Shown here: piece by piece, positions 23,255 to 55,544 of the stretch | How the letters are laid out: every line of letters starts with the position of its first letter | Numbering within the stretch: position 1 is the stretch's first letter | IMG/VR virus record: IMGVR_UViG_3300032213_002832 | Location: 103,516 to 167,515 of that record | DNA length: 64,000 bases | Strand: one strand, 5' to 3' | Source of the DNA: a virus | Notes under the pieces: model-generated | What the model was told of the DNA's origin: nothing | Seen by the model: only the letters and a program-made list of their open reading frames with translations | Databases searched by the model: none | Position numbers and translations under genes: made by a program

Positions 23255-23676
23255 TTCTTCCCCTTTTTCTTGGTAGTTTTTATATAGCCAGAATCTTTAA
23301 GAAACTCTACTGTTTCTTCATCTTCTTTTGTGCTTGTATAATTAGTAAAATCTTTAGCTTCTTGTAGCCAATTTGGATCTTCTCGCATACTGGCAGTATG
23401 TTTAGGTCTGAGCTTAACCCAACGGTCATAATACTTAATAGCATCCTTATCAGTATGGTCTACAGGCTTAATCTCAAATGTTTGAAAAAGACCCCATAAA
23501 CAATCTTCACATAAAGCAAAGGTATAGCGATTATTATCACCTAATATGCATGAATTCCACCCGCCGGAAATGTAAGTCTCTGGCAAACCCTCACCATAGC
23601 AATCTCCACCACATTTATTACAAATAGTGGACTCTATAGTATCAACAACTTTAAGCTTTTTTACAACTTTACGCAT
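23251..23676 (-). CDS. Cys-cluster (zinc-binding-like) protein
   Basis: 141 residues with ICNKCGGDC near residue 18 and CEDCLWGLF near 56, two CxxC pairs that could hold zinc. The remainder is rich in Trp and Lys. Overlaps the upstream paralog-family gene by one base. Confidence 0.6.
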   Translation of the reverse strand: MRKVVKKLKVVDTIESTICNKCGGDCYGEGLPETYISGGWNSCILGDNNRYTFALCEDCLWGLFQTFEIKPVDHTDKDAIKYYDRWVKLRPKHTASMREDPNWLQEAKDFTNYTSTKEDEETVEFLKDSGYIKTTKKKGKK

Positions 23677-33097: not shown

Positions 33098-33147
33098 AAA
33101 TACTCCTAAAATGTTGATGTTATATACTAAAACTCGTATACAACTCT

Positions 33148-33268
33148 CGTTTCGGTTGATCACAACCTATTTGTCATCAACTTACAAGTTAACATCGATT
33201 CGGTTTAAAACCTTGTTAGTCGGCTGGTGCGTAGCAGTGTCAATGTAAAATGGGGACCGAAGTCCCCA
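33148..33268 (-). repeat. Terminator / 16-mer / double promoter-like module
   Basis: In - strand order: TGGGGAC-TTCG-GTCCCCA hairpin (33251-33268) with TTTT, a one-base variant of the 16-mer (33229-33244), AACCGAATCGA (33195-33205) and a second AACCGAAACGA (33148-33158). The only module with two promoter-like elements. Confidence 0.72.
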
Positions 33269-37639: not shown

Positions 37640-38104
37640 CTACTTAACTAGATATCTTAGGCTTTCAGGTAGAGCGTCTATGTTTATAGTTGCTTTAGGT
37701 TTAGCTTGCTGTAGTTCAGCTAGTCTTTCAGCTATTGCTTCATCAACTTGTGCTAATTGCTCTGGATCAGTGATACCATCTCGTAGTGTTTTCAGTGCTT
37801 TAAGTTGCTCATCTTTAGGTCTAGAGGTTTTAGGTATGTCTTGTATACCACCATTTAATCTCTTATCTCTTCTTAAGTGATTACTAACCATTCCAACAAC
37901 ATACTCTTTTACTAGCTTACTCGTATTGTATTTGGCTTTCGCTTCAGTAGAGAAGTCAACTTTGTTAGCTAATATGCCTTCAGTCACTATATTCACTACA
38001 TTATTCCTCTCTTCTTTAGAGAGTTCAACTGCTGAGTCAAAGCTTGTTTTGTCTAATACTGAGCAAACTGCTTGAAAAACTGCATTGATTTGAGATGTTG
38101 TCAT
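37640..38104 (-). CDS. NHLRKDKRLNGG-family protein
   Basis: 154 residues: MTTSQINAVFQAVCSVLDKT, FDSAVELSKEERNNVVNIVT, EYVVGMVSNHLRRDKRLNGG, then KDEQLKALKTLRDG and the end INIDALPESLRYLVK, identical in its last 15 residues to the 39745-40227 protein. The IKNPGSR segment is replaced by IPKTSRP. Confidence 0.72.
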   Translation of the reverse strand: MTTSQINAVFQAVCSVLDKTSFDSAVELSKEERNNVVNIVTEGILANKVDFSTEAKAKYNTSKLVKEYVVGMVSNHLRRDKRLNGGIQDIPKTSRPKDEQLKALKTLRDGITDPEQLAQVDEAIAERLAELQQAKPKATINIDALPESLRYLVK

Positions 38105-39744: not shown

Positions 39745-40227
39745 TTACTTAACCAAGTATCGTAGCGATTCAGGCAGAGCATCTATGTTGATCGTTGCTT
39801 TCGGCTTGCGTGTTGCTTGTATCTCAAGTGTGCGGTTAGCAATCGCTGCTTCAATCTCATGCCACTCTTCAGTGCCGTTGTCGAACGTACTCTGTAACAA
39901 CTTCAGTGCTTTAAGCTGCTCATCACCAGATCCAGCACGACTTCCAGGGTTTTTAATCACACGTCCAACACCACCGTTCATTCGCTTATCATTTCGTAGT
40001 TGATGACTCACCATACCAACTACATAACCTTTCACCTTCGCTTCAGTATCGTACTTCACCTTCGCATCATCACTAAATCCAACCTTACCAGCTAATATCC
40101 CTTCAGTGACCAAACCAATAACCGTTGCTCGTTGCTCATCACTCACTTCAACCGCACTATCAAACCCATCACACTTCAACACTGCACATACTGCTGCGAA
40201 TACTGCGTCATTTTGCTTCATAGTCAT
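39745..40227 (-). CDS. NHLRKDKRLNGG-family protein
   Basis: 160 residues: MTMKQNDAVFAAVCAVLKCD, FDSAVEVSDEQRATVIGLVT, YVVGMVSHQLRNDKRMNGGV, IKNPGSRAGSGDEQLKALKL, INIDALPESLRYLVK. Closest to the 32618 and 37640 copies. Its start has GGAG 5 nt upstream and an AACTGAGTCGA element at 40253-40263. Confidence 0.72.
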   Translation of the reverse strand: MTMKQNDAVFAAVCAVLKCDGFDSAVEVSDEQRATVIGLVTEGILAGKVGFSDDAKVKYDTEAKVKGYVVGMVSHQLRNDKRMNGGVGRVIKNPGSRAGSGDEQLKALKLLQSTFDNGTEEWHEIEAAIANRTLEIQATRKPKATINIDALPESLRYLVK

Positions 40228-40536: not shown

Positions 40537-40906
40537 AACAGGATTCAGAGAGGGTGCGCAGTGGTACACCCGCTAGCTTGAGCAGCAGGTACTAGTACCT
40601 CGAGTCGGTTGCCCTCCCCTGCCCGGTCTCTCTCTACATATCACTTTTTCATTTCTAGGGCCCGGCCCCACCCTACCCACTGGCTTGAGGGAGAATCTAG
40701 GGTCCCTTGGCTAGCTGGTACCACAAAATCACATTTATATAAATAACTTCACACTACTCCTCACAAACTCACAGCAGCCACACGCACCCATAATTTACAT
40801 ACACACCATATTTCCATATATGCTCCATATAAACAGCCCACATTTCCATATATCACACTACTCCTCATATCCATACAACCACACCCAATATCACAACAAG
40901 GTTTCG
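40537..40906. other. Non-coding hub between - and + strand arrays
   Basis: About 40541-40720 is near 57% GC in an AT-rich genome and is dense in 6-bp palindromes and a 14-nt one (AGGTACTAGTACCT, 40587-40600). AACCGACTCGA (- strand) lies at 40600-40610. From 40721 the + strand is strongly G-depleted with repeats (CACACTACTCCTCA twice, TTTCCATATAT twice). No gene seen. Candidate origin, packaging or control region (inference). Confidence 0.5.
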
Positions 40907-40979: not shown

Positions 40980-41153
40980 ATGAGCATAGGTTCTTTTTAT
41001 TATGATAATAGTCTATATCTCTTCTATAACAGAAGAGATGATAGTTGGCGTATTAGCCAACGGAAACACCCTTCAAGTAGCGAAAGAGCAATAGAAGAGT
41101 CATCGCGTAGGTTACAAATGCGGGTTGTACTAATTAGGCTGGGAGTGATATAA
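40980..41153 (+). CDS. Micro-gene family, class 1, member 1
   Basis: 57 residues. Starts MSIGSFYYDNSLYLFYNRRD and ends SSRRLQMRVVLIRLGVI. Class 1 members share an N-terminal short beta-like motif and the C-terminal RLxMRxxLxKLGVI, a likely amphipathic helix. GGACGG before the start is a weak ribosome site; GGGAG inside the last codons serves the next gene. Confidence 0.7.
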   Translation: MSIGSFYYDNSLYLFYNRRDDSWRISQRKHPSSSERAIEESSRRLQMRVVLIRLGVI

Positions 41154-41154
41154 C

Positions 41155-41322
41155 ATGCGTAGGTTTTATGATGGCTATTTAGTATTAACATACTTTGAGA
41201 AAGTGAACGAATGCTCTATTACTCAGTATCAGACATTTGCCGGTCTGCCATTACAAAGTCTTTTTGAGTCAAAGTGTAGATTACAAATGGTATCGATACT
41301 AGTTAAGCTGGGTGTTGTATGA
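41155..41322 (+). CDS. Micro-gene family, class 1, member 2
   Basis: 55 residues. MRRFYDGYLVLTYFEKVNEC at the N-terminus and CRLQMVSILVKLGVV at the end. Overlaps member 3 at ATGA. Confidence 0.7.
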   Translation: MRRFYDGYLVLTYFEKVNECSITQYQTFAGLPLQSLFESKCRLQMVSILVKLGVV

Positions 41323-41516
41323 GTGAAGTTTATATCATTGGTAATGATATGGAGTTTTCTTATAATACAGAATGTAGGGAGTATGCGCTTTTTACCAATG
41401 GTTCATATATTTTAGGATCTGCTCCAATCGACCTAATGGTTCCAATCGACCAGGATATTGAGTTTTATTTTAAAGTGAACATGGTTATATTGTTAAATAG
41501 ACTTGAGGTTATATGA
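41319..41516 (+). CDS. Micro-gene family, class 1, member 3
   Basis: 65 residues. N-terminal IIGNDMEFSYNTECREYALF; C-terminal FKVNMVILLNRLEVI. The GAG GTT codons of LEV make a GAGG site for member 4, which overlaps at ATGA. Confidence 0.7.
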   Translation: MSEVYIIGNDMEFSYNTECREYALFTNGSYILGSAPIDLMVPIDQDIEFYFKVNMVILLNRLEVI

Positions 41517-41698
41517 AGTACATATATACATGTGGTGATGTAAGGCTAATATATGATAATCAGGCAAATTATCATGTGGATGGTAGGCATTGTATTATTT
41601 ACAATAGATATAAGGTACCCATGTCTATAGAGGAAGCGTTAGGAGCTGTACATAAGTTGGAAGTAGTACGGATTCTACTTAAACTAGGAGTACTATGA
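41513..41698 (+). CDS. Micro-gene family, class 1, member 4
   Basis: 61 residues. N-terminal YTCGDVRLIYDNQANYHVDG; C-terminal HKLEVVRILLKLGVL. GGAG in LGV precedes the next ATG by 4 nt; ATGA overlap. Confidence 0.7.
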   Translation: MKYIYTCGDVRLIYDNQANYHVDGRHCIIYNRYKVPMSIEEALGAVHKLEVVRILLKLGVL

Positions 41699-41910
41699 CT
41701 ACGTTTATGAGATGGGGAGATGGTGGCATGGTACTACATTATGATGTAGCAAATACTACTGGGCACGTATTTAAATCTGGAGAATGGAGTAGCATTTACT
41801 TCGTACCTCATCAGGGGTGGAGAGGTAGAGATGATAAATCATTAGAGGAATCGCGTCACAGGTTACAAATGAGGCTTGTGCTACTTAAACTCGGAGTACT
41901 TACAGTATGA
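41695..41910 (+). CDS. Micro-gene family, class 1, member 5
   Basis: 71 residues. N-terminal MRWGDGGMVLHYDVANTTGH; C-terminal SRHRLQMRLVLLKLGVLTV, here followed by two extra residues. ATGA overlap with member 6. Confidence 0.7.
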   Translation: MTTFMRWGDGGMVLHYDVANTTGHVFKSGEWSSIYFVPHQGWRGRDDKSLEESRHRLQMRLVLLKLGVLTV

Positions 41911-42083
41911 AGAAATACAAAGATGGGCGTTATTTTATACACTATGAAGGTGATAAAATTCATGTTTTTCACATCACTTATTCAACAGACCCTAAGAATT
42001 ACAAGGATTCGCCGGCTCAGAATCAGTCGCGCCTTAGGATGGAGATGGTGAGAATTCTGCTTACACTCGGAGTAGCTACATGA
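41907..42083 (+). CDS. Micro-gene family, class 1, member 6
   Basis: 58 residues. N-terminal MKKYKDGRYFIHYEGDKIHV; C-terminal SRLRMEMVRILLTLGVAT. The usual basic residue before LGV is Thr here. ATGA overlap with member 7. Confidence 0.7.
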   Translation: MKKYKDGRYFIHYEGDKIHVFHITYSTDPKNYKDSPAQNQSRLRMEMVRILLTLGVAT

Positions 42084-42283
42084 GCTATATACATATTGGT
42101 GGCAGTGGTGGAAGAGCATTTTCTTATGATATGAAAACTGGATCTTACTCTATGAGTCAACCTACTTCGCCCATATATACTATGGGCCGTTATGATGTAG
42201 TAGATGTAGTACCAGAACATGACGATGATTTTCATTTTAAAGTGGACATTGTTTTATTATTAGCTAAATTTGGAGTGGTATGA
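42080..42283 (+). CDS. Micro-gene family, class 1, member 7
   Basis: 67 residues. N-terminal MSYIHIGGSGGRAFSYDMKT; C-terminal FKVDIVLLLAKFGVV. Resembles member 3 in the end region (FKVxxVxLL). ATGA overlap with member 8. Confidence 0.7.
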   Translation: MSYIHIGGSGGRAFSYDMKTGSYSMSQPTSPIYTMGRYDVVDVVPEHDDDFHFKVDIVLLLAKFGVV

Positions 42284-42489
42284 GAATAATTAGAACATAT
42301 ACTGATGGGAACTTCGTACTACATCATGACAACTTAGATGATAGTTGTAATATTTATCAGGTTTGTAATACAGTTAGTTTTGGTAATATTTATATCCCTC
42401 CGCCGAAGGAAGGAGATAAAGATTCGCTTCTTAGACTAAAAGTGAGGCAAATGGCAATAAAGCTACTCCCCAAATTAGGTGTTATATGA
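42280..42489 (+). CDS. Micro-gene family, class 1, member 8
   Basis: 69 residues. N-terminal IRTYTDGNFVLHHDNLDDSC; C-terminal LRLKVRQMAIKLLPKLGVI. ATGA overlap with member 9. Confidence 0.7.
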   Translation: MRIIRTYTDGNFVLHHDNLDDSCNIYQVCNTVSFGNIYIPPPKEGDKDSLLRLKVRQMAIKLLPKLGVI

Positions 42490-42602
42490 AAGCAATCAAA
42501 ACAGAATCGTTAGAAGAAGCTTTTAAGAGTGTCACTTTCAATATCGTACATTTAAAAACATTTAGTATGATTCAATTACTTTCTAAACTAGGTGTGCGAT
42601 GA
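42486..42602 (+). CDS. Micro-gene family, member 9, shortened
   Basis: 38 residues: begins MKAIKTESLEEAFKSVTFNI and ends FSMIQLLSKLGVR. It lacks the N-terminal DGxxxLxY element, so it is the motif helix with a short lead. ATGA overlap. Confidence 0.62.
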   Translation: MKAIKTESLEEAFKSVTFNIVHLKTFSMIQLLSKLGVR

Positions 42603-42784
42603 TAAGGTTTGCGGATGGCGATATGAGAGTGGATTATTATGTAGATTCAGGTAATACGTTTTACCATATACAAATACCACAGCATATGTTTGATATAAAC
42701 TACACCGTCACCCCAAGCTTGTTTGATTCAAAACATAGGTTACAAATGCGAGTGATATTATTCAAGCTTGGAGTATGGGAGTAG
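42599..42784 (+). CDS. Micro-gene family, class 1, member 10
   Basis: 61 residues. N-terminal MIRFADGDMRVDYYVDSGNT; C-terminal SKHRLQMRVILFKLGVWE. Separated from member 11 by 3 nt. Confidence 0.7.
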   Translation: MIRFADGDMRVDYYVDSGNTFYHIQIPQHMFDINYTVTPSLFDSKHRLQMRVILFKLGVWE

Positions 42785-42787
42785 CAG

Positions 42788-42991
42788 ATGGATAAGCGAA
42801 GTGTAGTGTATATAGATGGCGATTACATGATGTCTTATAATCGTATGAATTACGCGTGGTGTGGATATGACGAGAAATACTCATATTATGATATCAAATA
42901 TAGACGTGGCTTTCGTACAGGTAAAGAAGATAATAGTGGTCTTTATAGGCTTCTGATGAGACGATTACTAATGAAGTTGGAAGTAGTATAA
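42788..42991 (+). CDS. Micro-gene family, class 1, member 11
   Basis: 67 residues. N-terminal VVYIDGDYMMSYNRMNYAWC; C-terminal LYRLLMRRLLMKLEVV. Stop and next start overlap as TAATG. Confidence 0.7.
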   Translation: MDKRSVVYIDGDYMMSYNRMNYAWCGYDEKYSYYDIKYRRGFRTGKEDNSGLYRLLMRRLLMKLEVV

Positions 42992-43185
42992 TGGTTGAAA
43001 TGTTTGTAACAATTAGTGATGGGAACTGGATACTACAGATGAATACCACTAGAGGTACTGGGCGTATACAATCTGCTTTTTACCCATTTGTAAACAAACC
43101 ACAATATTTACAAAATAGTCATGAAGTGGATTCATTCTATAGACTCTATATACGACTAATATTAATGAAGTTGGGAGTAGCATGA
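42991..43185 (+). CDS. Micro-gene family, class 1, member 12
   Basis: 64 residues. N-terminal VTISDGNWILQMNTTRGTGR; C-terminal FYRLYIRLILMKLGVA. ATGA overlap with member 13. Confidence 0.7.
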   Translation: MVEMFVTISDGNWILQMNTTRGTGRIQSAFYPFVNKPQYLQNSHEVDSFYRLYIRLILMKLGVA

Positions 43186-43295
43186 CGTACCTTGATCGTA
43201 TAGAGTTTTCTCATGATGAAATTCAGAAGGCCATTAACCTACTTAATATAATAAACAAATTAACGCAGCTACTTAAAAAGTTGGATGTTATATGA
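43182..43295 (+). CDS. Micro-gene family, member 13, shortened
   Basis: 37 residues: begins MTYLDRIEFSHDEIQKAINL and ends KLTQLLKKLDVI. No DG element. LDV replaces LGV, so the ribosome-site codons are broken (GGAT) while the protein motif is kept. ATGA overlap. Confidence 0.62.
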   Translation: MTYLDRIEFSHDEIQKAINLLNIINKLTQLLKKLDVI

Positions 43296-43462
43296 TATTA
43301 AAGCATAAACATGTTGGTAATTGGATAGTGCGTTACAGCGACACCTTCAGTACTTCTAACAGCGATATAAGTATACATCAGATTGATAGCAATCCAAGTT
43401 ATAAACATTCATTTAGGGGATTAAGACTAATCGGAGTCTTGATGAAGTTGGGTGTTATATGA
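43292..43462 (+). CDS. Micro-gene family, class 1, member 14
   Basis: 56 residues. N-terminal KHKHVGNWIVRYSDTFSTSN; C-terminal GLRLIGVLMKLGVI. ATGA overlap with member 15. Confidence 0.7.
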   Translation: MILKHKHVGNWIVRYSDTFSTSNSDISIHQIDSNPSYKHSFRGLRLIGVLMKLGVI

Positions 43463-43617
43463 AGATGGAGCATATTTGGTATCACACGCCAAGTGGCGTT
43501 AGTGCGAATTATAAGGGTGAGTGGAAGCATTTTGGTGCTAACATCTCGTGGAATCGTGACAATATGAAGGATATAGCTGAATTGTGGTTGTTGTTAAAAA
43601 GGTTGGAGGTGGTATGA
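43459..43617 (+). CDS. Micro-gene family, class 1, member 15
   Basis: 52 residues. N-terminal IWYHTPSGVSANYKGEWKHF; C-terminal IAELWLLLKRLEVV. GGAGG in the last codons lies 4 nt before the next ATG; ATGA overlap. Confidence 0.7.
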   Translation: MKMEHIWYHTPSGVSANYKGEWKHFGANISWNRDNMKDIAELWLLLKRLEVV

Positions 43618-43778
43618 AAACTATTGGTGGGTTTAGGCAAGATCGACATGGCATTATGATAATTGATATATATGATCAAGATATTATGCGCTTGGCTGCG
43701 ATCGGGGGTTTTACAGTTCGGCATAGAAGATATCAGGCACATATGTTGATACTACTTCAAAAGGTTGGAGTGATATGA
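43614..43778 (+). CDS. Micro-gene family, class 1, member 16
   Basis: 54 residues from MKTIGGFRQDRHGIMIIDIY; C-terminal YQAHMLILLQKVGVI. The in-frame start at 43584 is rejected because it lies inside member 15. ATGA overlap with member 17. Confidence 0.7.
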   Translation: MKTIGGFRQDRHGIMIIDIYDQDIMRLAAIGGFTVRHRRYQAHMLILLQKVGVI

Positions 43779-43933
43779 GTGGTAATATGTTGGCATTTGG
43801 TAATAGCTATATTGCGTATACAGGTGATTTTAGAGTCTATAGTTATCAAAATGGAGATGTTTTTACTTACAACTTCTTATTAATAGTGATGTTGCTAGAT
43901 AAGTTAGGGATGAGTTTGGATAAGTGTCGATAA
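43775..43933 (+). CDS. Micro-gene family, class 1, member 17 (last of first block)
   Basis: 52 residues. N-terminal MLAFGNSYIAYTGDFRVYSY; C-terminal FLLIVMLLDKLGMSLDKCR, where the motif is followed by seven residues, foreshadowing class 2. A 75-nt gap with a TATAAT box follows. Confidence 0.66.
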   Translation: MSGNMLAFGNSYIAYTGDFRVYSYQNGDVFTYNFLLIVMLLDKLGMSLDKCR

Positions 43934-43973
43934 ATATTGGTTTTTAGTTTTTCCGACGACCAGAGGCTACGAG

Positions 43974-43979
43974 TATAAT
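43974..43979 (+). promoter_or_regulatory. Promoter-like box before the second micro-gene block
   Basis: TATAAT in GAGTATAATGATT, 30 nt before the first class 2 gene in the only sizeable gap (43934-44008) of the + strand array. Confidence 0.5.
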
Positions 43980-44008
43980 GATTTTATATAAATAAATATA
44001 AGGTTGAG

Positions 44009-44146
44009 ATGAATATTGGTTGTATTAGAAATATAGTGTTATTACTTATAAAGCTCAATGTGCTTCGGGATGTATCACCGGATACAGCAAATGCTTTAAT
44101 AATCGATTACATTAAGATTAAATACAATCAGTATAGTAAAGGGTAG
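44009..44146 (+). CDS. Micro-gene family, class 2, member 1
   Basis: 45 residues. The motif is near the N-terminus: CIRNIVLLLIKLNVLRDVSP, followed by a second helix (ANALIIDYIKIKYNQYSKG). Class 2 members carry the motif early or in the middle with a variable tail. Confidence 0.66.
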   Translation: MNIGCIRNIVLLLIKLNVLRDVSPDTANALIIDYIKIKYNQYSKG

Positions 44147-44154
44147 AAAAAGAT

Positions 44155-44289
44155 ATGATGGATTATAAAGGGGGATGGTATCAACACCGAGAACTTTCGA
44201 ATGTCATTTACATCTTATGTAAACTTGGTGCTATAGATCAGAATATTCTTACGCTACTTACTGGTAGAAAACTTGAATATAAGAAGTAA
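44155..44289 (+). CDS. Micro-gene family, class 2, member 2
   Basis: 44 residues: ELSNVIYILCKLGAIDQNIL then LLTGRKLEYKK. LGA replaces LGV. Two Met codons at the start; either could be used. Confidence 0.64.
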   Translation: MMDYKGGWYQHRELSNVIYILCKLGAIDQNILTLLTGRKLEYKK

Positions 44290-44300
44290 ATTGGAGATAT

Positions 44301-44432
44301 ATGCGTAAATATTCATTAGCTCGTGTCAGGTATACGCTAAATACCAAGCACAAGATGCTAAAACTCCTATCTAAGTTAGGTGTTATTCATCCGCTTGTAT
44401 ACGCTAAAGCATATAATAAGGTAAGTTTATAA
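44301..44432 (+). CDS. Micro-gene family, class 2, member 3
   Basis: 43 residues: MRKYSLARVRYTLNTKHKML KLLSKLGVIH region then PLVYAKAYNKVSL. TTGGAG stands 6 nt before the ATG. Confidence 0.66.
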   Translation: MRKYSLARVRYTLNTKHKMLKLLSKLGVIHPLVYAKAYNKVSL

Positions 44433-44591
44433 ATGAGATACTCAGCAGCACATAGCGGCGCCCTCATTAATATCGAAGTATTAATTATACTCCTGTATAA
44501 GCTCGATATATTAGATGAGATACAGTATGGCAAAGCTGTACTCCACCTATATGGAAGGGGATTAACTTATTACAATGAATCTTACCTATAA
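44433..44591 (+). CDS. Micro-gene family, class 2, member 4
   Basis: 52 residues: ALINIEVLIILLYKLDILDE then IQYGKAVLHLYGRGLTYYNE. The start abuts member 3's stop. Its end overlaps member 5 by 17 nt. Confidence 0.66.
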   Translation: MRYSAAHSGALINIEVLIILLYKLDILDEIQYGKAVLHLYGRGLTYYNESYL

Positions 44592-44712
44592 GCAAAGATT
44601 ACAACTCATGCGAGTTGTAAGGCTCCTTAGTCGTTTGGGAGTCGTTAGATCTGGCCTATATCCTAATATTGATTTTATAAAGATCAACCTAGTGATGGAA
44701 TCAAATGACTAA
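44575..44712 (+). CDS. Micro-gene family, class 2, member 5
   Basis: 45 residues: KQRLQLMRVVRLLSRLGVVR then a tail ending LVMESND. The RLxLMRxxxLL lead resembles class 1. AGGGG is the ribosome site within member 4. ATG overlap with member 6 (8 nt). Confidence 0.66.
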   Translation: MNLTYKQRLQLMRVVRLLSRLGVVRSGLYPNIDFIKINLVMESND

Positions 44713-44872
44713 GAAAACTATACAACAACAAATAGATTCTTATCATAAGATACAAGATACCTATTTTAAACAAGTACTTTATCGCGAGCGATTAAACAAG
44801 ATTATTAGTTTACTGATACGTATGGGTGCTCTTGATAATGTCCCATCGAAAGTGTTGTGGCAATTAAGATGA
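44705..44872 (+). CDS. Micro-gene family, class 2, member 6
   Basis: 55 residues, longer helical lead (MTKKTIQQQIDSYHKIQDTY) then RLNKIISLLIRMGALDNVPS and VLWQLR. RMGALD is a variant of KLGVID. Confidence 0.64.
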   Translation: MTKKTIQQQIDSYHKIQDTYFKQVLYRERLNKIISLLIRMGALDNVPSKVLWQLR

Positions 44873-44889
44873 GGGGAGGTAAAATATAA

Positions 44890-45033
44890 GTGGGTAATTA
44901 TTTTGGTGACGACTGTATGCGTATGCTACATATGCTTCATGTGTTAGAGGTTATTGATAGTAATCAGCAAGTCATCGCAAGACGTAGAGCACTTTATGAG
45001 ACAGATACTTTGTATAAAGCATGGACTACATAA
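44890..45033 (+). CDS. Micro-gene family, class 2, member 7 (GTG start)
   Basis: 47 residues: GNYFGDDCMRMLHMLHVLEV then IDSNQQVIARRRALYETDTL. GGGGAGG stands 10 nt before the GTG; an internal ATG at 44917 is the alternative start. Confidence 0.6.
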   Translation: MGNYFGDDCMRMLHMLHVLEVIDSNQQVIARRRALYETDTLYKAWTT

Positions 45034-45044
45034 GGTAATTTTAA

Positions 45045-45152
45045 ATGGCGCGATCACCAATAGAAGATATTAAAAGAGCAATGTGTTATTATGATGAGCT
45101 TTATTATTTGAGAAAGATAAAGCTACTTATGGTTAAGCTAGGGGTAATATGA
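45045..45152 (+). CDS. Micro-gene family, member 8 of second block (class 1-like end)
   Basis: 35 residues: MARSPIEDIKRAMCYYDELY then LRKIKLLMVKLGVI and stop. The shortest member; the motif is C-terminal. ATGA overlap with the next gene. Confidence 0.62.
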   Translation: MARSPIEDIKRAMCYYDELYYLRKIKLLMVKLGVI

Positions 45153-45277
45153 AAGGTGGGTTAGTAAAAATCATTTATATATTACGTAGACTCGATGTTA
45201 TTTGCGCATCTACTGAGTTTAATGCTTGGCAACATATTAAATACTATACTAATTTTGTGGAAACCAATAATACATGA
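45149..45277 (+). CDS. Micro-gene family, class 2, member 9
   Basis: 42 residues: MKGGLVKIIYILRRLDVICA then STEFNAWQHIKYYTNFVETN. ATGA overlaps on both sides. Confidence 0.65.
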   Translation: MKGGLVKIIYILRRLDVICASTEFNAWQHIKYYTNFVETNNT

Positions 45278-45516
45278 ATAGTGCTCCAATCTACACAAAT
45301 GGCCATTTTAATCAAATCAATGATCTCCTCTACAAGTTAGAGAGACTAGGTGTTATCGATTACAGTTTATATCTAAGTAGCAGCACTAGATTATGGATGA
45401 AGCACGCTGCCACCTATCCTAATAATAGCTCTACCTATACGAGCATCTCTTCCACTTCCTATACAGGTATCTACACTATTGCTACAACTGATACGACATT
45501 TTTAGGTAACAAATGA
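45274..45516 (+). CDS. Micro-gene family, class 2, member 10 (longest)
   Basis: 80 residues: FNQINDLLYKLERLGVIDYS then a Ser/Thr/Tyr-rich tail of about 50 residues (SSTYTSISSTSYTGIYTIAT). The unusual tail sets it apart. Overlaps the next ATG by 4 nt. Confidence 0.68.
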   Translation: MNSAPIYTNGHFNQINDLLYKLERLGVIDYSLYLSSSTRLWMKHAATYPNNSSTYTSISSTSYTGIYTIATTDTTFLGNK

Positions 45517-45662
45517 AATACAATATTACGATAGAGAACCTTATAGTATATGATATCAGTGATATTTTAGTACTTCTTAATAGGTTGGAAGTTATCAATG
45601 ACCATATCTATAATGTAGCAAAAAGCAATACTATATATTTCGGACATGTGGAGGTATCATGA
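45513..45662 (+). CDS. Micro-gene family, class 2, member 11
   Basis: 49 residues: VYDISDILVLLNRLEVINDH then IYNVAKSNTIYFGHVEVS. GGAGG in its last codons precedes the next start; ATGA overlap. Confidence 0.66.
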   Translation: MKYNITIENLIVYDISDILVLLNRLEVINDHIYNVAKSNTIYFGHVEVS

Positions 45663-45799
45663 CAATTCACGATCACTGGCGTAGACAGTGTATGATTGGG
45701 TTGCTGCGCAAATTAAGTGTACACGATAAGTTAATGTCACGTGCTGTCACGTCTAGTCGTCCCGTTAAGAACCGCGTAAATGACAAACAACCTAGATAG
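45659..45799 (+). CDS. Micro-gene family, class 2, member 12
   Basis: 46 residues: HDHWRRQCMIGLLRKLSVHD then a basic tail (SSRPVKNRVNDKQPR). LSV replaces LGV. Overlaps member 13 by 20 nt. Confidence 0.63.
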   Translation: MTIHDHWRRQCMIGLLRKLSVHDKLMSRAVTSSRPVKNRVNDKQPR

Positions 45800-45923
45800 C
45801 ATGGAAGACATGATTAGTTTATTATGTAAACTAGGAGTCATAGATGATAAGGCATTTGAACGCATCATGCCTTGGGGATTGTATGGTATGTATACACAAG
45901 CTATATGGGGCGGTAATAAGTAA
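45780..45923 (+). CDS. Micro-gene family, class 2, member 13
   Basis: 47 residues: MTNNLDSMEDMISLLCKLGV then IDDKAFERIMPWGLYGMYTQ. A near-consensus member (LLCKLGVID). TAATG overlap with the next. Confidence 0.67.
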   Translation: MTNNLDSMEDMISLLCKLGVIDDKAFERIMPWGLYGMYTQAIWGGNK

Positions 45924-46066
45924 TGGGCTTAACTAATGTATCACCAGCGATAGCAAAAAATATAAGAGATATTGTTATTCTATTATATAGATTAGATGTT
46001 TATGATTATACAGTATCACTTACCGCACAAATCAAACTATATCATATTGGGAGATGGACAGAATGA
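45923..46066 (+). CDS. Micro-gene family, class 2, member 14
   Basis: 47 residues: AIAKNIRDIVILLYRLDVYD then YTVSLTAQIKLYHIGRWTE. GGGAG in its end serves the last + strand member; ATGA overlap. Confidence 0.66.
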   Translation: MGLTNVSPAIAKNIRDIVILLYRLDVYDYTVSLTAQIKLYHIGRWTE

Positions 46067-46230
46067 CTTATGGTATGATACTTTTACTTAATAAGCTGGA
46101 TATTATAGATGGGAATAATTATAACAATATTATATTCGAAGCGGTGTCGTCGGCGCCTATACAGCAATACTTAACTGCGCAACAATTAAAGATATGGACA
46201 AAAAGTCTAAAGATAATACCTAAAAAGTAA
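46063..46230 (+). CDS. Micro-gene family, class 2, member 15 (last on + strand)
   Basis: 55 residues: MTYGMILLLNKLDIIDGNNY then a helical tail (QYLTAQQLKIWTKSLKIIPK). The motif begins almost at the start. It converges with the first - strand member 2 nt away. Confidence 0.66.
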   Translation: MTYGMILLLNKLDIIDGNNYNNIIFEAVSSAPIQQYLTAQQLKIWTKSLKIIPKK

Positions 46231-46232
46231 TT

Positions 46233-46367
46233 TTACTTTTCATCTAGTACAATTTTCAATATAGTTATAAAAGTATCATAAGCGCTCTTCTGATGTAAGA
46301 CGCCTAGCCTACGCAATAGAGTAACCATAGAGGCTACACCACTTAGTCTTTGTCGATTATTCAGCAT
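46233..46367 (-). CDS. Micro-gene family, - strand member 1
   Basis: 44 residues: LSGVASMVTLLRRLGVLHQK then AYDTFITILKIVLDEK. Pairs closely with the next gene (LSGVxSxVxLLxxLxV). Start overlaps the neighbour's stop as TAATG. Confidence 0.65.
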   Translation of the reverse strand: MLNNRQRLSGVASMVTLLRRLGVLHQKSAYDTFITILKIVLDEK

Positions 46368-46516
46368 TATTTCTCTTTTTTATATGATACACCCAATGCC
46401 ACACTGATTATTTCCACAAGTGCTGAATTATGTGTTAGCTTATCTACCACATTTAGTTTATATAATAGATCAACTAATGAAGTAACACCTGATAAATCTC
46501 TATACCCACCAGACAT
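46367..46516 (-). CDS. Micro-gene family, - strand member 2
   Basis: 49 residues: LSGVTSLVDLLYKLNVVDKL then THNSALVEIISVALGVSYKK. Recent duplicate of the preceding - strand member. GGAG stands before the start. Confidence 0.65.
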   Translation of the reverse strand: MSGGYRDLSGVTSLVDLLYKLNVVDKLTHNSALVEIISVALGVSYKKEK

Positions 46517-46518
46517 TA

Positions 46519-46722
46519 TTACTCCGGATATTTAAAAATACGATTAACTAATTCATGAACTACATACTCAACATTAGTAGTGGAACCCTCTACTACATTC
46601 ATTTTTTCCAGTAAATATATCATTTGCCTTAATAGCTTTTGACGTTGGCCTTGTAATGAGTTATATCTATTTCTTCGGAACAGTTCCATATGTTCCATAA
46701 ACTGTCTGGTGGCACTTTTCAT
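46519..46722 (-). CDS. Micro-gene family, - strand member 3
   Basis: 67 residues. A basic lead (HMELFRRNRYNSLQGQRQKL) then LLRQMIYLLEKMNVVEGSTT and a helical tail VVHELVNRIFKYPE. Overlaps the next gene by 4 nt. Confidence 0.65.
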   Translation of the reverse strand: MKSATRQFMEHMELFRRNRYNSLQGQRQKLLRQMIYLLEKMNVVEGSTTNVEYVVHELVNRIFKYPE

Positions 46723-46925
46723 TTATTACTCATTCTTTGAAATAAGCTAAGTTTCCATCTCTTGACGCCTTCTAGAACATCGCTCCTATATAGGTGTATA
46801 TCCTTATTTTCGAATACGTCTAGTTTCTTAAGTATTCTACAAATATAGAGAACATCATTTGCTGTTCTTTTATTAGGGTCAGATGGTGGCTCATGATTAG
46901 TCAGTATATGAGATACTCCCCACAT
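46719..46925 (-). CDS. Micro-gene family, - strand member 4
   Basis: 68 residues. DVLYICRILKKLDVFENKDI then HLYRSDVLEGVKRWKLSLFQ. First gene of the - strand block; the lead contains SDPNKRTAN, unlike others. Confidence 0.62.
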   Translation of the reverse strand: MWGVSHILTNHEPPSDPNKRTANDVLYICRILKKLDVFENKDIHLYRSDVLEGVKRWKLSLFQRMSNK

Positions 46926-46996: not shown

Positions 46997-47203
46997 TTAC
47001 GATTCATCGAGTAAGAGACTTATTCTAGCTAACTTATCAGAGGCCATCTCATACCTCTCTTTGCGGGATGGTAGTGTATGTGCCTGTAGAAACTCTGGTA
47101 GACACTTTCTTTTAAATGGGCACCGATTACAAAGCTCACTAGTTAAACAATCACCATTTTTTGCTACTATATTGTTTAAAACTTTTATCTGCTCATCATC
47201 CAA
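46997..47203 (-). CDS. 68-residue Cys-cluster protein
   Basis: MDDEQIKVLNNIVAKNGDCL followed by TSELCNRCPFKRKCLPEF: four Cys (CxxxxxCxxCxxxxxC) that could hold zinc or an iron-sulfur cluster. It heads the - strand block and diverges from the structural genes. No family named. Confidence 0.6.
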   Translation of the reverse strand: MDDEQIKVLNNIVAKNGDCLTSELCNRCPFKRKCLPEFLQAHTLPSRKERYEMASDKLARISLLLDES

Positions 47204-47295: not shown

Positions 47296-48165
47296 ATGGC
47301 GGATAATAACGACTGTGGTCCTAATGGGTTACCATATAGTGGAATAGTTCCAACAGGATCTGGTTTTAATGGTGGTGGAACTATTGGTAGCGGGTCTAAC
47401 TATCCGACTTCACCAACATCTACTCCTTCTCCAATGCCTCTCTTCATTCCAGACCCAAGTATTAAGGGGATATCGTTTGACCAACTACTCCAAAATAGAG
47501 GGGTTCGATTCGTTCATCGTAAGAAAACGCCCTGCCCTAACATAGAGACTGTTTTTGACAATAGTCATAACCCAAACTGTCCTCTATGTACAAATGGCTT
47601 AATCACATACTCTGAAAAAGAGATTTGGGGAGTCTTCTACAGTAACTCTTTAGAAAAGAATTTTGAATATCAAGGTTTATGGGAGATTGGTAGTGCCGTG
47701 GTAACTCTACCTACAGAGTATCCAGATGGTTCTCAAGCAGAATTCAATACATTTGACCAACTAGTTATTCCAGACTTTAAGGTAAGAATGTGGGAGCTTA
47801 AGGAGTATAAGCCTACTGCTAATAAGCAACAGATCCTGCGGTATCCTATACTAGATGTTGAGTATGTAGCATCGGCAGTGAATAATACGCTGGTCCAATA
47901 CACTAAAGGCGTAGATTTTAATATCACTAATAACAACATTGAGTGGATATCTGGAAGAGAGCCTGTGTATAATGTTGGGCAGAGCAAAGGTGATGTCTAT
48001 GTAGTCCAGTATTATGCAAATCCTGTGTATAACGTTCTACAGCACTTAAGAGAATTAAGAATTACTCAAGAGCTTAATCTACAAGGACAAAAGACGCCTA
48101 AGCGCTTACCACAGCAAGTATTAGTACGTCGTGATTTCTTAAATAACCCGTCTAGACAAGAATAG
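47296..48165 (+). CDS. Virion connector-like protein with zinc-binding loop
   Basis: 289 residues. A Gly/Ser/Pro-rich start, then GVRFVHRKKTPCPNIETVFD and NPNCPLCTNGLITYSEKEIW, a Cys pattern seen in phage neck or head-tail joining proteins. The C-terminus QQVLVRRDFLNNPSRQE is typical of this group. Position at the head of the tail operon fits a connector role, but the family is inferred. Confidence 0.62.
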   Translation: MADNNDCGPNGLPYSGIVPTGSGFNGGGTIGSGSNYPTSPTSTPSPMPLFIPDPSIKGISFDQLLQNRGVRFVHRKKTPCPNIETVFDNSHNPNCPLCTNGLITYSEKEIWGVFYSNSLEKNFEYQGLWEIGSAVVTLPTEYPDGSQAEFNTFDQLVIPDFKVRMWELKEYKPTANKQQILRYPILDVEYVASAVNNTLVQYTKGVDFNITNNNIEWISGREPVYNVGQSKGDVYVVQYYANPVYNVLQHLRELRITQELNLQGQKTPKRLPQQVLVRRDFLNNPSRQE

Positions 48166-51593: not shown

Positions 51594-53768
51594 ATGGCTA
51601 TTAATGTATCATTTAACGGGGCCACAATATATAAGCCAGGTTCGTATTCCAAAACGAATATTGACTTGGGTGGAGGCTTTCCACTTGGACCAGCTGGACT
51701 AGTTGCTGTTATCGGTGAAGCCGATGCTGGAGCACCAGGTGCTCAAGAAGTAAATATCGCAAACAATCGTTTCCAAGCAGATCAGATTTCTTCTATTAGA
51801 AATAAGTATCGCAGTGGACCAATTGCTGACTCTGCCGCAATGCTATTCGCACCTGCTGCTGATGCTGCGATTCCTGGTGGAGCACAAACTGTTTGGTTCT
51901 ACAAAACCAATGCTTCAGTTCGCGCTACATTGGCATTAGCAACTACTTATGGAACTGCTCGCGCAACTGAATGGGGCGTTGGTGGAAACAAAGTCTCTGT
52001 TAAGAACGTATTAATCTCTGAAACTGCTGCTACAGTAGCTTCAACTGCTCCATTTGATGCCAACACTGTTAGTGCTGGTAACTTCAGTGTTCGAGTAAAT
52101 GGTGCTACTGCTACTACTGTTACTGTTGCTGGTACATACGCAACTCATGCTGCGTTTGTAGCTGATGTCGCAACATGGACTGTTGCTGGTATGACGTTTA
52201 CTGCTGGTGGTATAACTGGCGCTTCTACACTTACAATCGCAATGGCTGCTGCTCCTACTGCTCATCAAAATGGTTGGGGACGTAGTTTTGAATTAGTAGA
52301 TGGAACTGGTTTAGTACTCGCAGATATGGGTGTTGCTGTAGGACTAAAAACTCCTGTTGTTGAGCCTAGTGCTACTCTTACGTTAAATCAAACTCGTGAC
52401 GGAATCTCTGAGAGTGACTCATTGGGTGGAAATGTAGTTCTATCTATTGGTCATGATGGTTCTGGTGGTGTTACATCTGCTAGCGTCACTATTGACGCAA
52501 CAAATATTACACTTACAACAAACTTAGGTTCACAAATACTTCCTAAAGCTGGTTTTGCTATTCTTAAAGAAGTTGTTGATGAAATTAATTTAATCTCTTA
52601 TGGTGGTTGGTCCGCATCACTATCTAGTACACTATATAACCAATTATCTCCTTCAGTACTTGATGAAGTAACAACTGTTGGCGCACTTGCTGCTACTAGC
52701 GCAAAACCGGCACGTTTAAAGAAAGATGCCTCTGATGTATCAGATTTCTTTGCTGAAAGCTCTATGGCTTCTCTTGAAGATGCCGCAGCAAAAGGTCTTC
52801 CAGATGCTTTAGCTGAATCACTATTAGCTGGTGGAGCAAGAGGCGCAACATCGCCTGCTAGCATCGTTGCTGCTCTTGAGAAGTTTGAGAAGTTCCATGT
52901 AAACGCTATCGTCCCCCTATTCTCATGGGATGCTACAGATGATATCGCTGATGGTACTACTGACGCTGGTTCGACTTATACAATCGCTGGTATTCATCAA
53001 GCTGTTAAGACGCACATCTCACTAATGAAGACTACAAAGAAGAGATCAGAGCGTCAAGGATATTTATCTCTTAAAGATAGCTTTGCTAACTGTAAAATAG
53101 TTGCTGGTGATTTAGCTGATGGTCGTGAGCAATTAGTTATTCAAGATGTTCGTCAATCAGACGCTCAAGGTAATATCAAGTGGTTCCAACCATGGTCGCT
53201 TGCTTGCTTACTTGCTGGCGCACGCGGTGGAGCACCAATTGGTGAACCAATGACATTTAAGTTCTTAAATTGCTCTGGCATTAGACATACGGCTCAACCA
53301 ATGTCTACTCCTGATGCTGATATTGTAGTTGACTTTGATCCAGATCTACAAACTGACGAAGCAATCCAATCTGGCCTAACATTCCTCGAAAATCCACAAA
53401 ACGGTGGGTTCAGAGTTGTTGTAGATAATACAACTTATGGTAGAGACGGAAACTTTGTTTGGAATAGAGCTAACGTAGTTTACGCTGCTGACATTGTAGC
53501 ATTCAACTTGCGTAACTCTCTCGAAGCAGTGTACGTTGGTAAGAAGAATACAGTTTCAGTTGCCGATATTGCTGGTGTAGCAAGTACTATTCTTAATGGC
53601 TTCTTAACTCAAGGCATTACAGTGAGTACAGCGGACGCCCCGCAAGGATTTAAGAACTTAGTTGTTCGCTTAGAAGGTAATACTATTTACGTTGAAGTCA
53701 CTATTAAGATTGTAGAAGGAATCGACTTCATCCTCTCTGAAATCACAATTCAGCGAGCAACTGCTTAA
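51594..53768 (+). CDS. Contractile tail sheath protein
   Basis: 724 residues. The start has YKPGSYSKTNIDLGGGFPLG and GLVAVIGEADAGAPGA; the C-terminal part has KIVAGDLADGREQLVIQDVR, WSLACLLAGARGGAPIGEPM, RNSLEAVYVGKKNTVSVADI and the closing beta strands VEVTIKIVEGIDFILSEITI. These are standard features of phage sheath proteins. Large size for the family with a variable middle domain at about 120-330. Followed by a terminator at 53796. Confidence 0.93.
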   Translation: MAINVSFNGATIYKPGSYSKTNIDLGGGFPLGPAGLVAVIGEADAGAPGAQEVNIANNRFQADQISSIRNKYRSGPIADSAAMLFAPAADAAIPGGAQTVWFYKTNASVRATLALATTYGTARATEWGVGGNKVSVKNVLISETAATVASTAPFDANTVSAGNFSVRVNGATATTVTVAGTYATHAAFVADVATWTVAGMTFTAGGITGASTLTIAMAAAPTAHQNGWGRSFELVDGTGLVLADMGVAVGLKTPVVEPSATLTLNQTRDGISESDSLGGNVVLSIGHDGSGGVTSASVTIDATNITLTTNLGSQILPKAGFAILKEVVDEINLISYGGWSASLSSTLYNQLSPSVLDEVTTVGALAATSAKPARLKKDASDVSDFFAESSMASLEDAAAKGLPDALAESLLAGGARGATSPASIVAALEKFEKFHVNAIVPLFSWDATDDIADGTTDAGSTYTIAGIHQAVKTHISLMKTTKKRSERQGYLSLKDSFANCKIVAGDLADGREQLVIQDVRQSDAQGNIKWFQPWSLACLLAGARGGAPIGEPMTFKFLNCSGIRHTAQPMSTPDADIVVDFDPDLQTDEAIQSGLTFLENPQNGGFRVVVDNTTYGRDGNFVWNRANVVYAADIVAFNLRNSLEAVYVGKKNTVSVADIAGVASTILNGFLTQGITVSTADAPQGFKNLVVRLEGNTIYVEVTIKIVEGIDFILSEITIQRATA

Positions 53769-53795
53769 TAATTCAGAACTAAGACTCTAGATGCG

Positions 53796-53829
53796 CCTCC
53801 GTGGTATAATGGCTACGGAGGTTTTTATT
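53796..53829 (+). terminator. Rho-independent terminator after the sheath gene
   Basis: CCTCCGT/ACGGAGG stem with a 12-nt loop that itself contains TATAAT, followed by TTTTTATTATT. It overlaps the apparent start of the HNH-kinase gene. Confidence 0.82.
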
Positions 53830-54831
53830 ATTAAAAAATGTATATGCTGTGATAATATCTTAAAATCTACGAAACCAGATGCTCGTATATGTAAGGTGTG
53901 TTCGCGTAAAACTAAAGAACCCGAGTTTAGGGTGTGTGGATTCTGTGACAAAAAGTTCACTGATAATTCACGTTCTAAAAATAAAAAATACTGCTCTATT
54001 AGATGTAATACCGATGCTGGCCACGCTAGACATAAAGACAACATCCTCAATGGTTCAATAGAGAAGCGTAAAGATAAGCGAGATCGTAAAGTAGAAAGAA
54101 AATATAGATATAATACTGATATAAAATTTAAGTTATCAATTGTGTTGAGAACTAGACTTAACGCTGCTATTAAGAATGGGCAAAAAGCCGGTTCCGCTAT
54201 TAAAGATCTAGGCTGTTCAGTAGATTTACTAAAATCATATCTAGAATCTAAGTTCCTACCCAATATGACTTGGGATAACTGGGGTAAAGATGGCTGGCAT
54301 ATAGATCATATAATCCCAATATCTAGTTTCGATTTAACGAATAGAGATGAATTGTTAAAAGCTTGTCACTATACTAACTTACAACCTATGTGGGCATTGG
54401 ATAATTTCATGAAATCAGATAAAATAACAATCAATAATACTATCTATATATTAGCTGGACCAAACGGGTGCGGTAAGACTACACTAGCACGAAAACTTGA
54501 TCATAAATTTAATATCATAGATTACGACTTATACACCTTTAATAAGTGTATAGAGTTAGCATTAAGCAATAATAACAAACCCCACCTCATAGTGACTCCT
54601 ATACAAGCAAAACGTATGAAGAAGTTATTAGAAAATCAAGGTGCTATAGTTAATATTATATATCTTCAAGAAACGCGTGAAACTATAGTAGAAAGAATAA
54701 TCAGTAGAGAAGGTAAGATAACAGATACTATTGATAGGCGTATTAAACGATATGAGACATTGAAAAAGAAAGATCTTTTTGTATTCTCTGGAACTCAACT
54801 TGAGGTTGAGGATTGGTTAAAGTCTATATAA
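53809..54831 (+). CDS. HNH endonuclease fused to a P-loop kinase-like domain
   Basis: About 340 residues. N-terminal Cys-rich zinc segment (KCICCDNIL, CKVC, CGFCDKK, CSIRC), then an HNH domain (GWHIDHIIPISSFDLTNRDE, LLKACHYTNLQPMWALDN) and a C-terminal domain with P-loop AGPNGCGKTTLARKL and a DYDLYTF segment as in small nucleotide or polynucleotide kinases. HNH enzymes of this type are homing endonucleases inserted between phage genes. Both candidate starts (53791, 53809) lie inside the sheath terminator, so the true start is uncertain. A terminator follows at 54843. Confidence 0.78.
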   Translation: MATEVFIIKKCICCDNILKSTKPDARICKVCSRKTKEPEFRVCGFCDKKFTDNSRSKNKKYCSIRCNTDAGHARHKDNILNGSIEKRKDKRDRKVERKYRYNTDIKFKLSIVLRTRLNAAIKNGQKAGSAIKDLGCSVDLLKSYLESKFLPNMTWDNWGKDGWHIDHIIPISSFDLTNRDELLKACHYTNLQPMWALDNFMKSDKITINNTIYILAGPNGCGKTTLARKLDHKFNIIDYDLYTFNKCIELALSNNNKPHLIVTPIQAKRMKKLLENQGAIVNIIYLQETRETIVERIISREGKITDTIDRRIKRYETLKKKDLFVFSGTQLEVEDWLKSI

Positions 54832-54986: not shown

Positions 54987-55544
54987 ATGGCAGGTATTAA
55001 ACCGGGTTTTATTACAGGTGCGAACGCGAGAGTTAAACTTGATGGTGTAACTTTGGCATACTGTACAGATCTAAACTTTACAGTAGATGTAGCAACTATT
55101 CCAATCGAAGTTATTGGAACTTATGAAGTTAAGTCATATGAGCCAGTTGCTTATAGTGTTAACGGTTCATTTTCAGTAATCAGATATACACAAAAAGATG
55201 GTTCAACAAACCCTCATGAAGGCGCAGCAGCAAGTGGTACACCAGCTGATAAGCTAGTTGGCCCAAGTGGTAACTCTGTCGGCAAGCAATTAGATCCAGG
55301 CAGAATACTTACTTCCTCTACTTTTGATATCGAGATTCACCAAGTTGCTGCTAACAGTGAAACAACGACTGCTGCCAACAGTACTTATAAGATACAAGAT
55401 TGTCGTGTTACGCGTAGATCATCTTCTCTTAATAAGCGTGGCGTAATGGTAGATAGCTATGTATTTGTTGGTGTATTAGGTGGCGATACCGATAACGGTC
55501 AAGTTACAATAGTATCTCACTCAGGGCAAAAAGATCTAACTTAA
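54987..55544 (+). CDS. Tail tube-like protein 1
   Basis: 185 residues: FITGANARVKLDGVTLAYCT, VIGTYEVKSYEPVAYSVNGS and a closing strand YVFVGVLGG. The pattern of a single-domain tube protein with two long beta sheets. It shares this pattern with the next two genes. AAGGAG precedes the start and the unit has its own promoter, fitting a highly expressed tube subunit. Confidence 0.75.
   Translation: MAGIKPGFITGANARVKLDGVTLAYCTDLNFTVDVATIPIEVIGTYEVKSYEPVAYSVNGSFSVIRYTQKDGSTNPHEGAAASGTPADKLVGPSGNSVGKQLDPGRILTSSTFDIEIHQVAANSETTTAANSTYKIQDCRVTRRSSSLNKRGVMVDSYVFVGVLGGDTDNGQVTIVSHSGQKDLT

Follow-up and report, generated by a model that had tools for sequence, protein, structure and literature searches.

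A divergent array of phage micro-genes with a shared helix and virion-protein fragments

Results

Micro-genes beside the tail module

The 64,000-nucleotide stretch analysed here (the window) comes from the 167.5-kb genome of an uncultured myovirus, a large bacterial virus that is distantly SPO1-like. Flanked by a 160-aa gene on the left and a virion gene on the right, and adjoining the tail module, lie exactly 36 micro-genes of 35-80 aa at 40980-46925, 32 on the plus and 4 on the minus strand, as the first-pass annotation had read them. The whole 167.5-kb genome holds no second cluster of helix micro-genes. PHROG and Pfam searches with the 160-aa left-flank gene returned no match. The surrounding features are:

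39745..40227, minus strand: left flank anchor, 160-aa gene, at the same place in relatives
46997..47203, minus strand: small gene rich in Cys (CxxC-type), a right flank anchor also found in relatives
47296..48165, plus strand: virion structural protein (phrog_1004), the second right flank anchor
51594..53768, plus strand: tail sheath (phrog_279); arrays of relatives contain copies of this kind of N-terminus, MAINVSFNGATIYKPGSY
54987..55544, plus strand: putative tail tube, so named because of its family and because it follows the sheath; paralog at 55564-56163

The array comprises two sub-types, with a 75-nt gap between g17 and g18. Genes 1-17 (40980-43933) terminate in the helix:

g1, 40980..41153, plus strand, 57 aa: C-terminal helix VLIRLGVI, then stop
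g2, 41155..41322, plus strand, 55 aa: C-terminal helix
g3, 41319..41516, plus strand, 65 aa: C-terminal helix; nearest paralog is g7
g4, 41513..41698, plus strand, 61 aa: C-terminal helix
g5, 41695..41910, plus strand, 71 aa: C-terminal helix
g6, 41907..42083, plus strand, 58 aa: C-terminal helix
g7, 42080..42283, plus strand, 67 aa: putative tail-tube N-terminal fragment (SYSMSQPTSPIYTMGRYDVVDVVP) and helix
g8, 42280..42489, plus strand, 69 aa: C-terminal helix
g9, 42486..42602, plus strand, 38 aa: major-capsid N-arm fragment (IKTESLEEAFKSVTFNIVHLK; E 2.9e-6) and helix MIQLLSKLGVR
g10, 42599..42784, plus strand, 61 aa: three beta strands and a helix at 41-57, predicted
g11, 42788..42991, plus strand, 67 aa: C-terminal helix
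g12, 42991..43185, plus strand, 64 aa: C-terminal helix
g13, 43182..43295, plus strand, 37 aa: C-terminal helix
g14, 43292..43462, plus strand, 56 aa: C-terminal helix
g15, 43459..43617, plus strand, 52 aa: C-terminal helix
g16, 43614..43778, plus strand, 54 aa: C-terminal helix
g17, 43775..43933, plus strand, 52 aa: helix near the C-terminus

In most genes from 44009 on, the helix is internal with a tail after it:

g18, 44009..44146, plus strand, 45 aa: helix, then tail; first gene past the gap
g19, 44155..44289, plus strand, 44 aa
g20, 44301..44432, plus strand, 43 aa: two predicted helices, 4-25 and 31-42, with a turn between them (pLDDT 81.5)
g21, 44433..44591, plus strand, 52 aa
g22, 44575..44712, plus strand, 45 aa
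g23, 44705..44872, plus strand, 55 aa
g24, 44890..45033, plus strand, 47 aa: GTG start
g25, 45045..45152, plus strand, 35 aa: C-terminal helix
g26, 45149..45277, plus strand, 42 aa
g27, 45274..45516, plus strand, 80 aa: LERLGVID
g28, 45513..45662, plus strand, 49 aa
g29, 45659..45799, plus strand, 46 aa
g30, 45780..45923, plus strand, 47 aa
g31, 45923..46066, plus strand, 47 aa
g32, 46054..46230, plus strand, 58 aa
g33, 46233..46367, minus strand, 44 aa
g34, 46367..46516, minus strand, 49 aa
g35, 46519..46722, minus strand, 67 aa
g36, 46719..46925, minus strand, 68 aa: L074/L013, a near relative, has a likely ortholog (phmmer E 1.7e-5)

The claim that these genes share a motif stands up well to controls. 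The motif occurs in 33 of the 57 ORFs of at least 35 aa in the array region; 300 dinucleotide shuffles averaged 0.20 such ORFs and never gave more than 2, and eight other window pieces of equal length contain 0 or 1 motif ORFs each. A 4-nt ATGA overlap joins 17 of 31 plus-strand neighbour pairs. A Shine-Dalgarno (SD) match of at least four bases precedes 19 of the 36 array starts, compared with 11 of 149 other ATGs.

A helix conserved as protein

When the helices are aligned, a core position is Leu in 35 of 36 proteins, the residue before the second Leu is K or R in 34 of 36, and the second Leu is followed by G, D, E or N in 35 of 36 and then by V in 31 of 36. The motif is conserved at the level of protein, not DNA, because all six Leu codons occur at the near-invariant Leu and five codons at the K/R position. 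An RNA or DNA element in place of proteins is disfavoured by the codon diversity, and an Rfam search gave no match. The LGV codons (GGAGT) of genes 1-17 do supply the ribosome-binding site of the next gene; the SD sequence cannot explain the motif, however, because in most later genes the motif is internal to the protein and it also occurs on the minus strand. A copy of a T4-type late promoter, TATAAATA, lies ahead of each sub-array (40738 and 43987), but the window holds 6 such sequences against 12.4 expected, and we therefore give them no weight. Scans for sigma-70 promoters and terminators were at chance level.

That no described family resembles the array, as first suggested, agrees with every library searched (Pfam, PHROGs, PADLOC, PDB and fold). 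In both Pfam (best E 0.024) and PHROG (best E 0.0096) the top hit came from one micro-protein alone, with no family match in either; PADLOC gave one weak match (E 0.006, one member), the PDB sequence search none, and Foldseek with both predicted models nothing at E <=0.001. Nor does the array have a nucleotide match among 50,697 phage records, or a sequence match to cultured phages. A helix-turn-helix reading fails, as genes 1-17 stop directly after the first helix and no family of that fold was matched. We also sought a source for the helix in larger phage proteins. A profile of major-capsid residues 1-36 matches no array ORF, and hhalign of the helix profiles against 123 orthologous families gave nothing convincing, with results at control level bar one weak match to a 190-aa protein.

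Divergent arrays in relatives

The first-pass annotation had proposed comparing the locus in related phages. About half of 73 related loci carry comparable, highly divergent arrays at the same place, and the array is missing in some relatives (L036, L062). Virion proteins are 78-85% identical to those of the nearest relatives, yet few window micro-genes have clear counterparts there. Array genes vary strongly in length, and relatives have additional helix genes elsewhere in the genome.

Virion-protein fragments in the variable parts

A new finding here is that some variable parts are, as judged by profile matches, pieces of virion proteins to which the helix is attached. Their sources are the N-arm and a mid segment of the major capsid protein and the N-termini of the sheath, of the putative tube and of baseplate J, with E down to 1e-11. 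Fragment profiles were searched against 962 array ORFs, for which shuffled sets gave 0 to 0.2 matches. In this set, capsid 37-80 had 6 matches (6e-12 to 0.03, including g9), capsid 228-275 had 4, the tube N-terminus had 3 and sheath 1-24 had 7 in 7 phages (down to 6e-11), making sheath N-termini the piece copied most often.

In an unbiased scan of the 123 families, the only ones with partial matches were capsid, sheath, tube, baseplate J (PF04865) and a tail/head-tail protein (phrog_772/442), with 0.8 matches in total per shuffled control set; the replication and nucleotide families among the 123 yielded no fragment. A location test of virion versus other families with a crude split gave Fisher p 0.31, which is uninformative because most shared families sit in the structural half; hand-counting the families in head and tail blocks (26/69) gave about 0.006, a post hoc figure.

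Across all loci, about 25 small ORFs contain a recognisable virion fragment, and it is these that would make up virion-fragment chimeras, a class we propose here. In the window they are only g7 (tube) and g9 (capsid N-arm), 2 of 36, and in both the combination of an LLxKLG-type helix with a virion fragment in one protein is clear. Among the 25 fragment-bearing proteins, 13 reach a helix score of at least 4 with a window-trained matrix, a level reached by 28% of the array ORFs as a whole and by 6% of shuffled ones; in the remaining fragment-bearing proteins the helix is seen by eye only. One C-terminal module, CSCP...LLHKLL, is combined with a preceding capsid N-arm in L107_5960 and with a preceding tube N-terminus in L105_4816 and L119_6190, and L107_5960 matches genes annotated 'major capsid protein' in cultured phages. 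Reading the group-1 N-termini as tube copies is unsupported save for g7, as the others match no virion profile.

The fragments also differ in whose protein they resemble. Identity of g7 is 18/36 to L094-type tubes versus 7/24 to the phage's own tube, and L105_4816 likewise resembles other phages' tubes rather than its own. The best fit of g9 is its own capsid type; the fragments are thus not all non-self.

Discussion

The initial interpretation is supported in part. The set is expanded and diversifying around one common helix and matches no library family, and relatives have divergent arrays at the same locus. What is not supported is the pairing of a common helix with variable host targets, as the recognisable variable parts derive from virion proteins. 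For the same reason, it is likelier that contact with the target is made by the variable part and that the helix is a common handle. The mini-proteins may also be decoys or inhibitors, in which case they would target phage structural proteins or the host sensors that recognise these.

Our tentative preference is for a diversifying set of bait-plus-helix chimeras that binds virion subunits and spoils the assembly of co-infecting relatives. Each mini-protein would consist of a variable 'bait' and a common hydrophobic helix that ends in a K-L-[GDN]-V-[IVL] cap. The bait may attach to an assembly interface of the virion subunit that it matches, and the helix, as an effector handle that oligomerises, caps or recruits a partner, would poison or remove the bound subunit. 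Targets would mainly be related phages co-infecting the same cell, and the array would therefore be a kit for interference (superinfection/competition) with rapid gain and loss of modules. Against this interference reading count the small numbers with a recognisable fragment, 2 of 36 window genes and about 25 ORFs over the loci, the 13 of 25 fragment-bearing proteins that reach the helix score, the self-like fit of g9, and the Cys-rich, zinc-ribbon-like parts that other helix proteins of the relatives carry. A bolder version, in which the lytic phages of this group keep a protein-level library of rivals' virion pieces, each with the shared effector helix and renewed by capture, and so selectively block the assembly of co-infecting relatives, is doubtful; it would be a modular system of phage-against-phage interference that turns the rival's assembly interfaces against it.

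The main rival holds that the fragments are anti-defence decoys, which would occupy host immune sensors (CapRel, Lit, DSR2 and the like) without triggering them while the helix stabilises or oligomerises the decoy. Capsid and tube, the two best-known sensed classes, are among the copied proteins (sensor list in PMC10884400), a DSR2-tube complex is known (PMC11087589), and rapid turnover suits an arms race. Decoys should, however, mimic the phage's own sensed protein; g9 is self-like, g7 is not, and L105_4816 also sides with foreign tubes. Moreover, the most copied piece is the sheath N-terminus, for which we know of no sensor, and we regard decoys as rather unlikely. Also unlikely, in our judgement, is a host-takeover or host-inhibitor module in which dozens of small proteins act on variable host targets and virion fragments are incidental raw material. 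Such a role is known for small SPO1 genes (one paper treats SPO1 Gp49, PMC10531801), this phage is distantly SPO1-like, and most variable parts have no recognised source; yet the fragments that can be recognised are virion only, with none from replication or nucleotide families among the 123 tested.

That the fragments are N-terminal and other segments of virion proteins, encoded next to the tail module, would also suit small scaffolding, capping or quality-control peptides whose mimicry of assembly arms times the phage's own head and tail assembly. Essential helpers should be conserved, whereas the arrays are almost wholly different from one phage to the next despite the similarity of the virion proteins and are missing in some relatives, which makes this role quite improbable. 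Evolutionary debris, a recombination hot spot where broken genes and duplicated stretches of little function pile up, could account for fragments of other phage genes, the length variation and the extra helix genes elsewhere in relatives. We consider it very improbable, given that 36 genes keep open frames, ribosome-binding sites and ATGA coupling, that the helix is kept at the amino-acid level with free codon use, and that the fragments are in frame with the helix with virion proteins as sole source.

The interference reading has partial precedents. The tail assembly blocker Tab of the Pseudomonas prophage JBD26 blocks tail assembly of invading phages (PMC10884400) and, as we propose for the array, is a phage-encoded blocker of other phages' virion assembly. 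Tab differs in being one prophage gene that acts against the tape measure protein and is paired with a dedicated anti-Tab; it is no array and is not described as a virion fragment. The non-self likeness of g7 could make such a self-protection gene unnecessary. In yeast, the Ty1 restriction factor p22/p18 is likewise a piece of a protein that forms particles, and it disrupts particle assembly in a dominant manner (PMC4599808, PMC8458377), p22 being a Gag fragment that blocks particle assembly (PMC4599808), but it belongs to a retrotransposon and is a single C-terminal half of Gag made from an internal start, without an added helix or an array. DSAD1, an inhibitor of a virion-sensing defence (PMC11087589), is a single stand-alone inhibitor, whereas in the array the parts that can be identified are virion fragments joined to a helix.

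Like the array, the SPO1 host-takeover module brings together numerous small genes of a large SPO1-like myovirus. The SPO1 genes act on the host and are not known to share a helix motif, and the array has no sequence relation to the SPO1 cluster (no nucleotide match in the 50,697 phage records).

Tiny phage genes make up a large unexplained share of phage genomes, and here one such block gains a readable logic, a constant helix with a swappable segment and virion proteins as identifiable sources. If the interference reading is true, it would be a new mode of virus competition within one cell and a supply of natural inhibitors that act on the assembly of capsids and tails; if false, the array would still be a natural fragment panel pointing to virion-protein interfaces.

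Results

All 36 micro-genes that the first-pass annotation had read from the sequence (g1-g36, window 40980-46925) were found. Their motif occurs in 33 of 57 array ORFs of at least 35 aa; in 300 shuffles, motif-bearing ORFs averaged 0.20 and never numbered more than 2, so that its density is not due to chance. It is conserved as protein, with a near-invariant leucine encoded by all six leucine codons, and ribosome-binding sites are far commoner at micro-gene starts than at other ATGs. A profile of the later array genes, searched against the whole genome, gave 20 sites, all within the array. In g1-g17 a variable N-terminal part precedes a hydrophobic helix at the end of the protein; the stop and next start usually overlap as ATGA, and the final codons double as the next gene's ribosome-binding site. 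Genes from 44009 onward mostly have an internal helix and a short tail. The K-L-[GDN]-V-[IVL] motif looks like a helix C-cap. Predicted structures comprise a three-strand sheet plus helix for g10 (pLDDT 82) and a helical hairpin for g20 (helices 4-25 and 31-42, pLDDT 81.5); a fold search with both models gave no significant structural match. The family was absent from every library searched.

When 962 small array ORFs were compared with 1740 long ones from outside arrays, some micro-proteins proved to start like tail sheath and others to include parts of the major head protein, which is 482 aa long (phrog_752, E 9e-60). Profiles of defined virion-protein segments, for which shuffled peptides gave 0 to 0.2 matches, confirmed this. 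Six micro-proteins matched capsid residues 37-80:

L107_5960, 6e-12
L110_213, 5e-11
L082_7703, 5e-10
L106_5510
L090_8353
g9 of the window, 2.9e-6

Four match capsid residues 228-275, and one carries a piece from about residues 145-165. Sheath residues 1-18 are matched in seven phages (L119_7314, 6e-11), and the N-terminus of a putative tube, our label for a ~190-aa family adjoining the sheath with no function assigned in PHROGs, has three matches, including g7. An unbiased scan covered 123 families, each common to two or more of three phage genomes. Its partial matches were confined to capsid, sheath, tube, a baseplate-J protein and a tail/head-tail protein (phrog_772/442); one further family, the 160-aa gene flanking the array, was matched by divergent copies of the gene rather than by fragments. 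Among cultured phages, L107_5960 matches genes annotated as major capsid protein. Fragments are mostly N-terminal, except for the capsid mid pieces; N-terminal arms in HK97-fold capsids and contractile tails often make subunit-subunit contacts. For 34 of the window's 36 variable parts no source was found.

The architecture is modular. One C-terminal module (CSCP...LLHKLL) follows the capsid N-arm in L107_5960 and the tube N-terminus in L105_4816 and L119_6190. The related genome G2 has, 3 kb away from its capsid gene, a gene that joins the helix to LKSVTFDMKNLVLWPSI, a near-copy of the capsid N-arm. In other phages, about half of the proteins with a virion fragment lack a helix score. As to origin, g7 shares 18/36 residues with the tube of L094-type phages but only 7/24 with the window's own tubes, and L105_4816 also fits tubes of other phages better than its own, whereas g9 best fits the window's own capsid type; sheath pieces are too short for such a call.

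Searches with the sheath and with the virion gene that flanks the array retrieved many related phage contigs, giving 73 loci with usable upstream intervals (duplicates removed, window included). In relatives the 160-aa gene forms the left boundary of the micro-gene interval. Many of the 73 loci have micro-gene rows between it and the virion gene; in some the interval is short or otherwise filled. Two such loci lack the array and carry a small Cys-rich flank gene fused to a lysozyme-like domain:

L036 4471-5259 (-)
L062 5104-5895 (-)

A helix matrix built from only the window's own 36 helices, with a cut-off that 2% of control ORFs exceed, scored 170 of 965 small genes in other loci (reversed peptides, 51 of 965), at 0 to 13 per locus; the window has 34. 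Evident counterparts in relatives exist for just a few window genes, the best being g36 (1.7e-5) and g9 (7e-5, the common capsid fragment), whereas the virion proteins beside the array share 78-85% identity with their nearest relatives. Two relatives have extra helix genes outside the main array, in other small-gene clusters, some fusing the helix to Cys-rich zinc-ribbon-like segments:

G001:C1 100527-103588 and 125110-125510
G002:C1 136752-138164 and 161557-161927

Discussion

At least a subset of the array genes very probably encode virion-fragment chimeras. What these do is a more tentative matter. They may be bait-plus-helix proteins directed at virion proteins, which would interfere with virion assembly of co-infecting relatives. 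We favour interference because g7 is non-self, turnover is fast, and both fragment inhibitors and phage assembly blockers are known, namely Ty1 p22 (PMC4599808) and the phage-encoded Tab (PMC10884400). The main rival is that the chimeras act as decoys for host sensors that recognise capsid and tube, of which a list exists (PMC10884400), DSR2 being a relevant one (PMC11087589). The missing sources, the many fragment-bearing proteins without a helix score and the Cys-rich joins in relatives keep interference a possible reading rather than a probable one.

Genomic setting

The window is the final 64 kb of an uncultured virus record totalling 167.5 kb. Its best matches among cultured phages, at 22-34% identity, are to SPO1-like Bacillus phages and to Myxococcus phage Mx1. 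Its features include:

Array neighbours: virion structural protein (phrog_1004), tail sheath (phrog_279), ribonucleotide reductase
23676-24110, 32618-33163, 37640-38104, 39745-40227 (-): 160-aa flank gene and paralogs (MKQNDAVFAAV...NPGSRAG)
40738-40745, 43987-43994 (+): T4-type late-promoter word TATAAATA, one copy 5' of each sub-array

The promoter word is rarer across the window than expected. Immediately 5' of the array, 40550-40740 is GC-rich and apparently non-coding (GGGCCCGGCCCCACCC...). The 160-aa gene, with several paralogs in the leftward part of the window, had no match in PHROG or Pfam. Unusually for a tail module, a 346-aa gene (53791-54831) with weak, mixed matches to kinases and endonuclease VII/HNH sits between sheath and putative tube. 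Finally, the L150 contig (LNEN01000305.1, 146,658 bases), binned in a Cytophagales MAG, is evidently phage, and the MAG therefore contains a misbinned or infecting virus; its length and match coordinates are identical to those of the phage contig behind L097.
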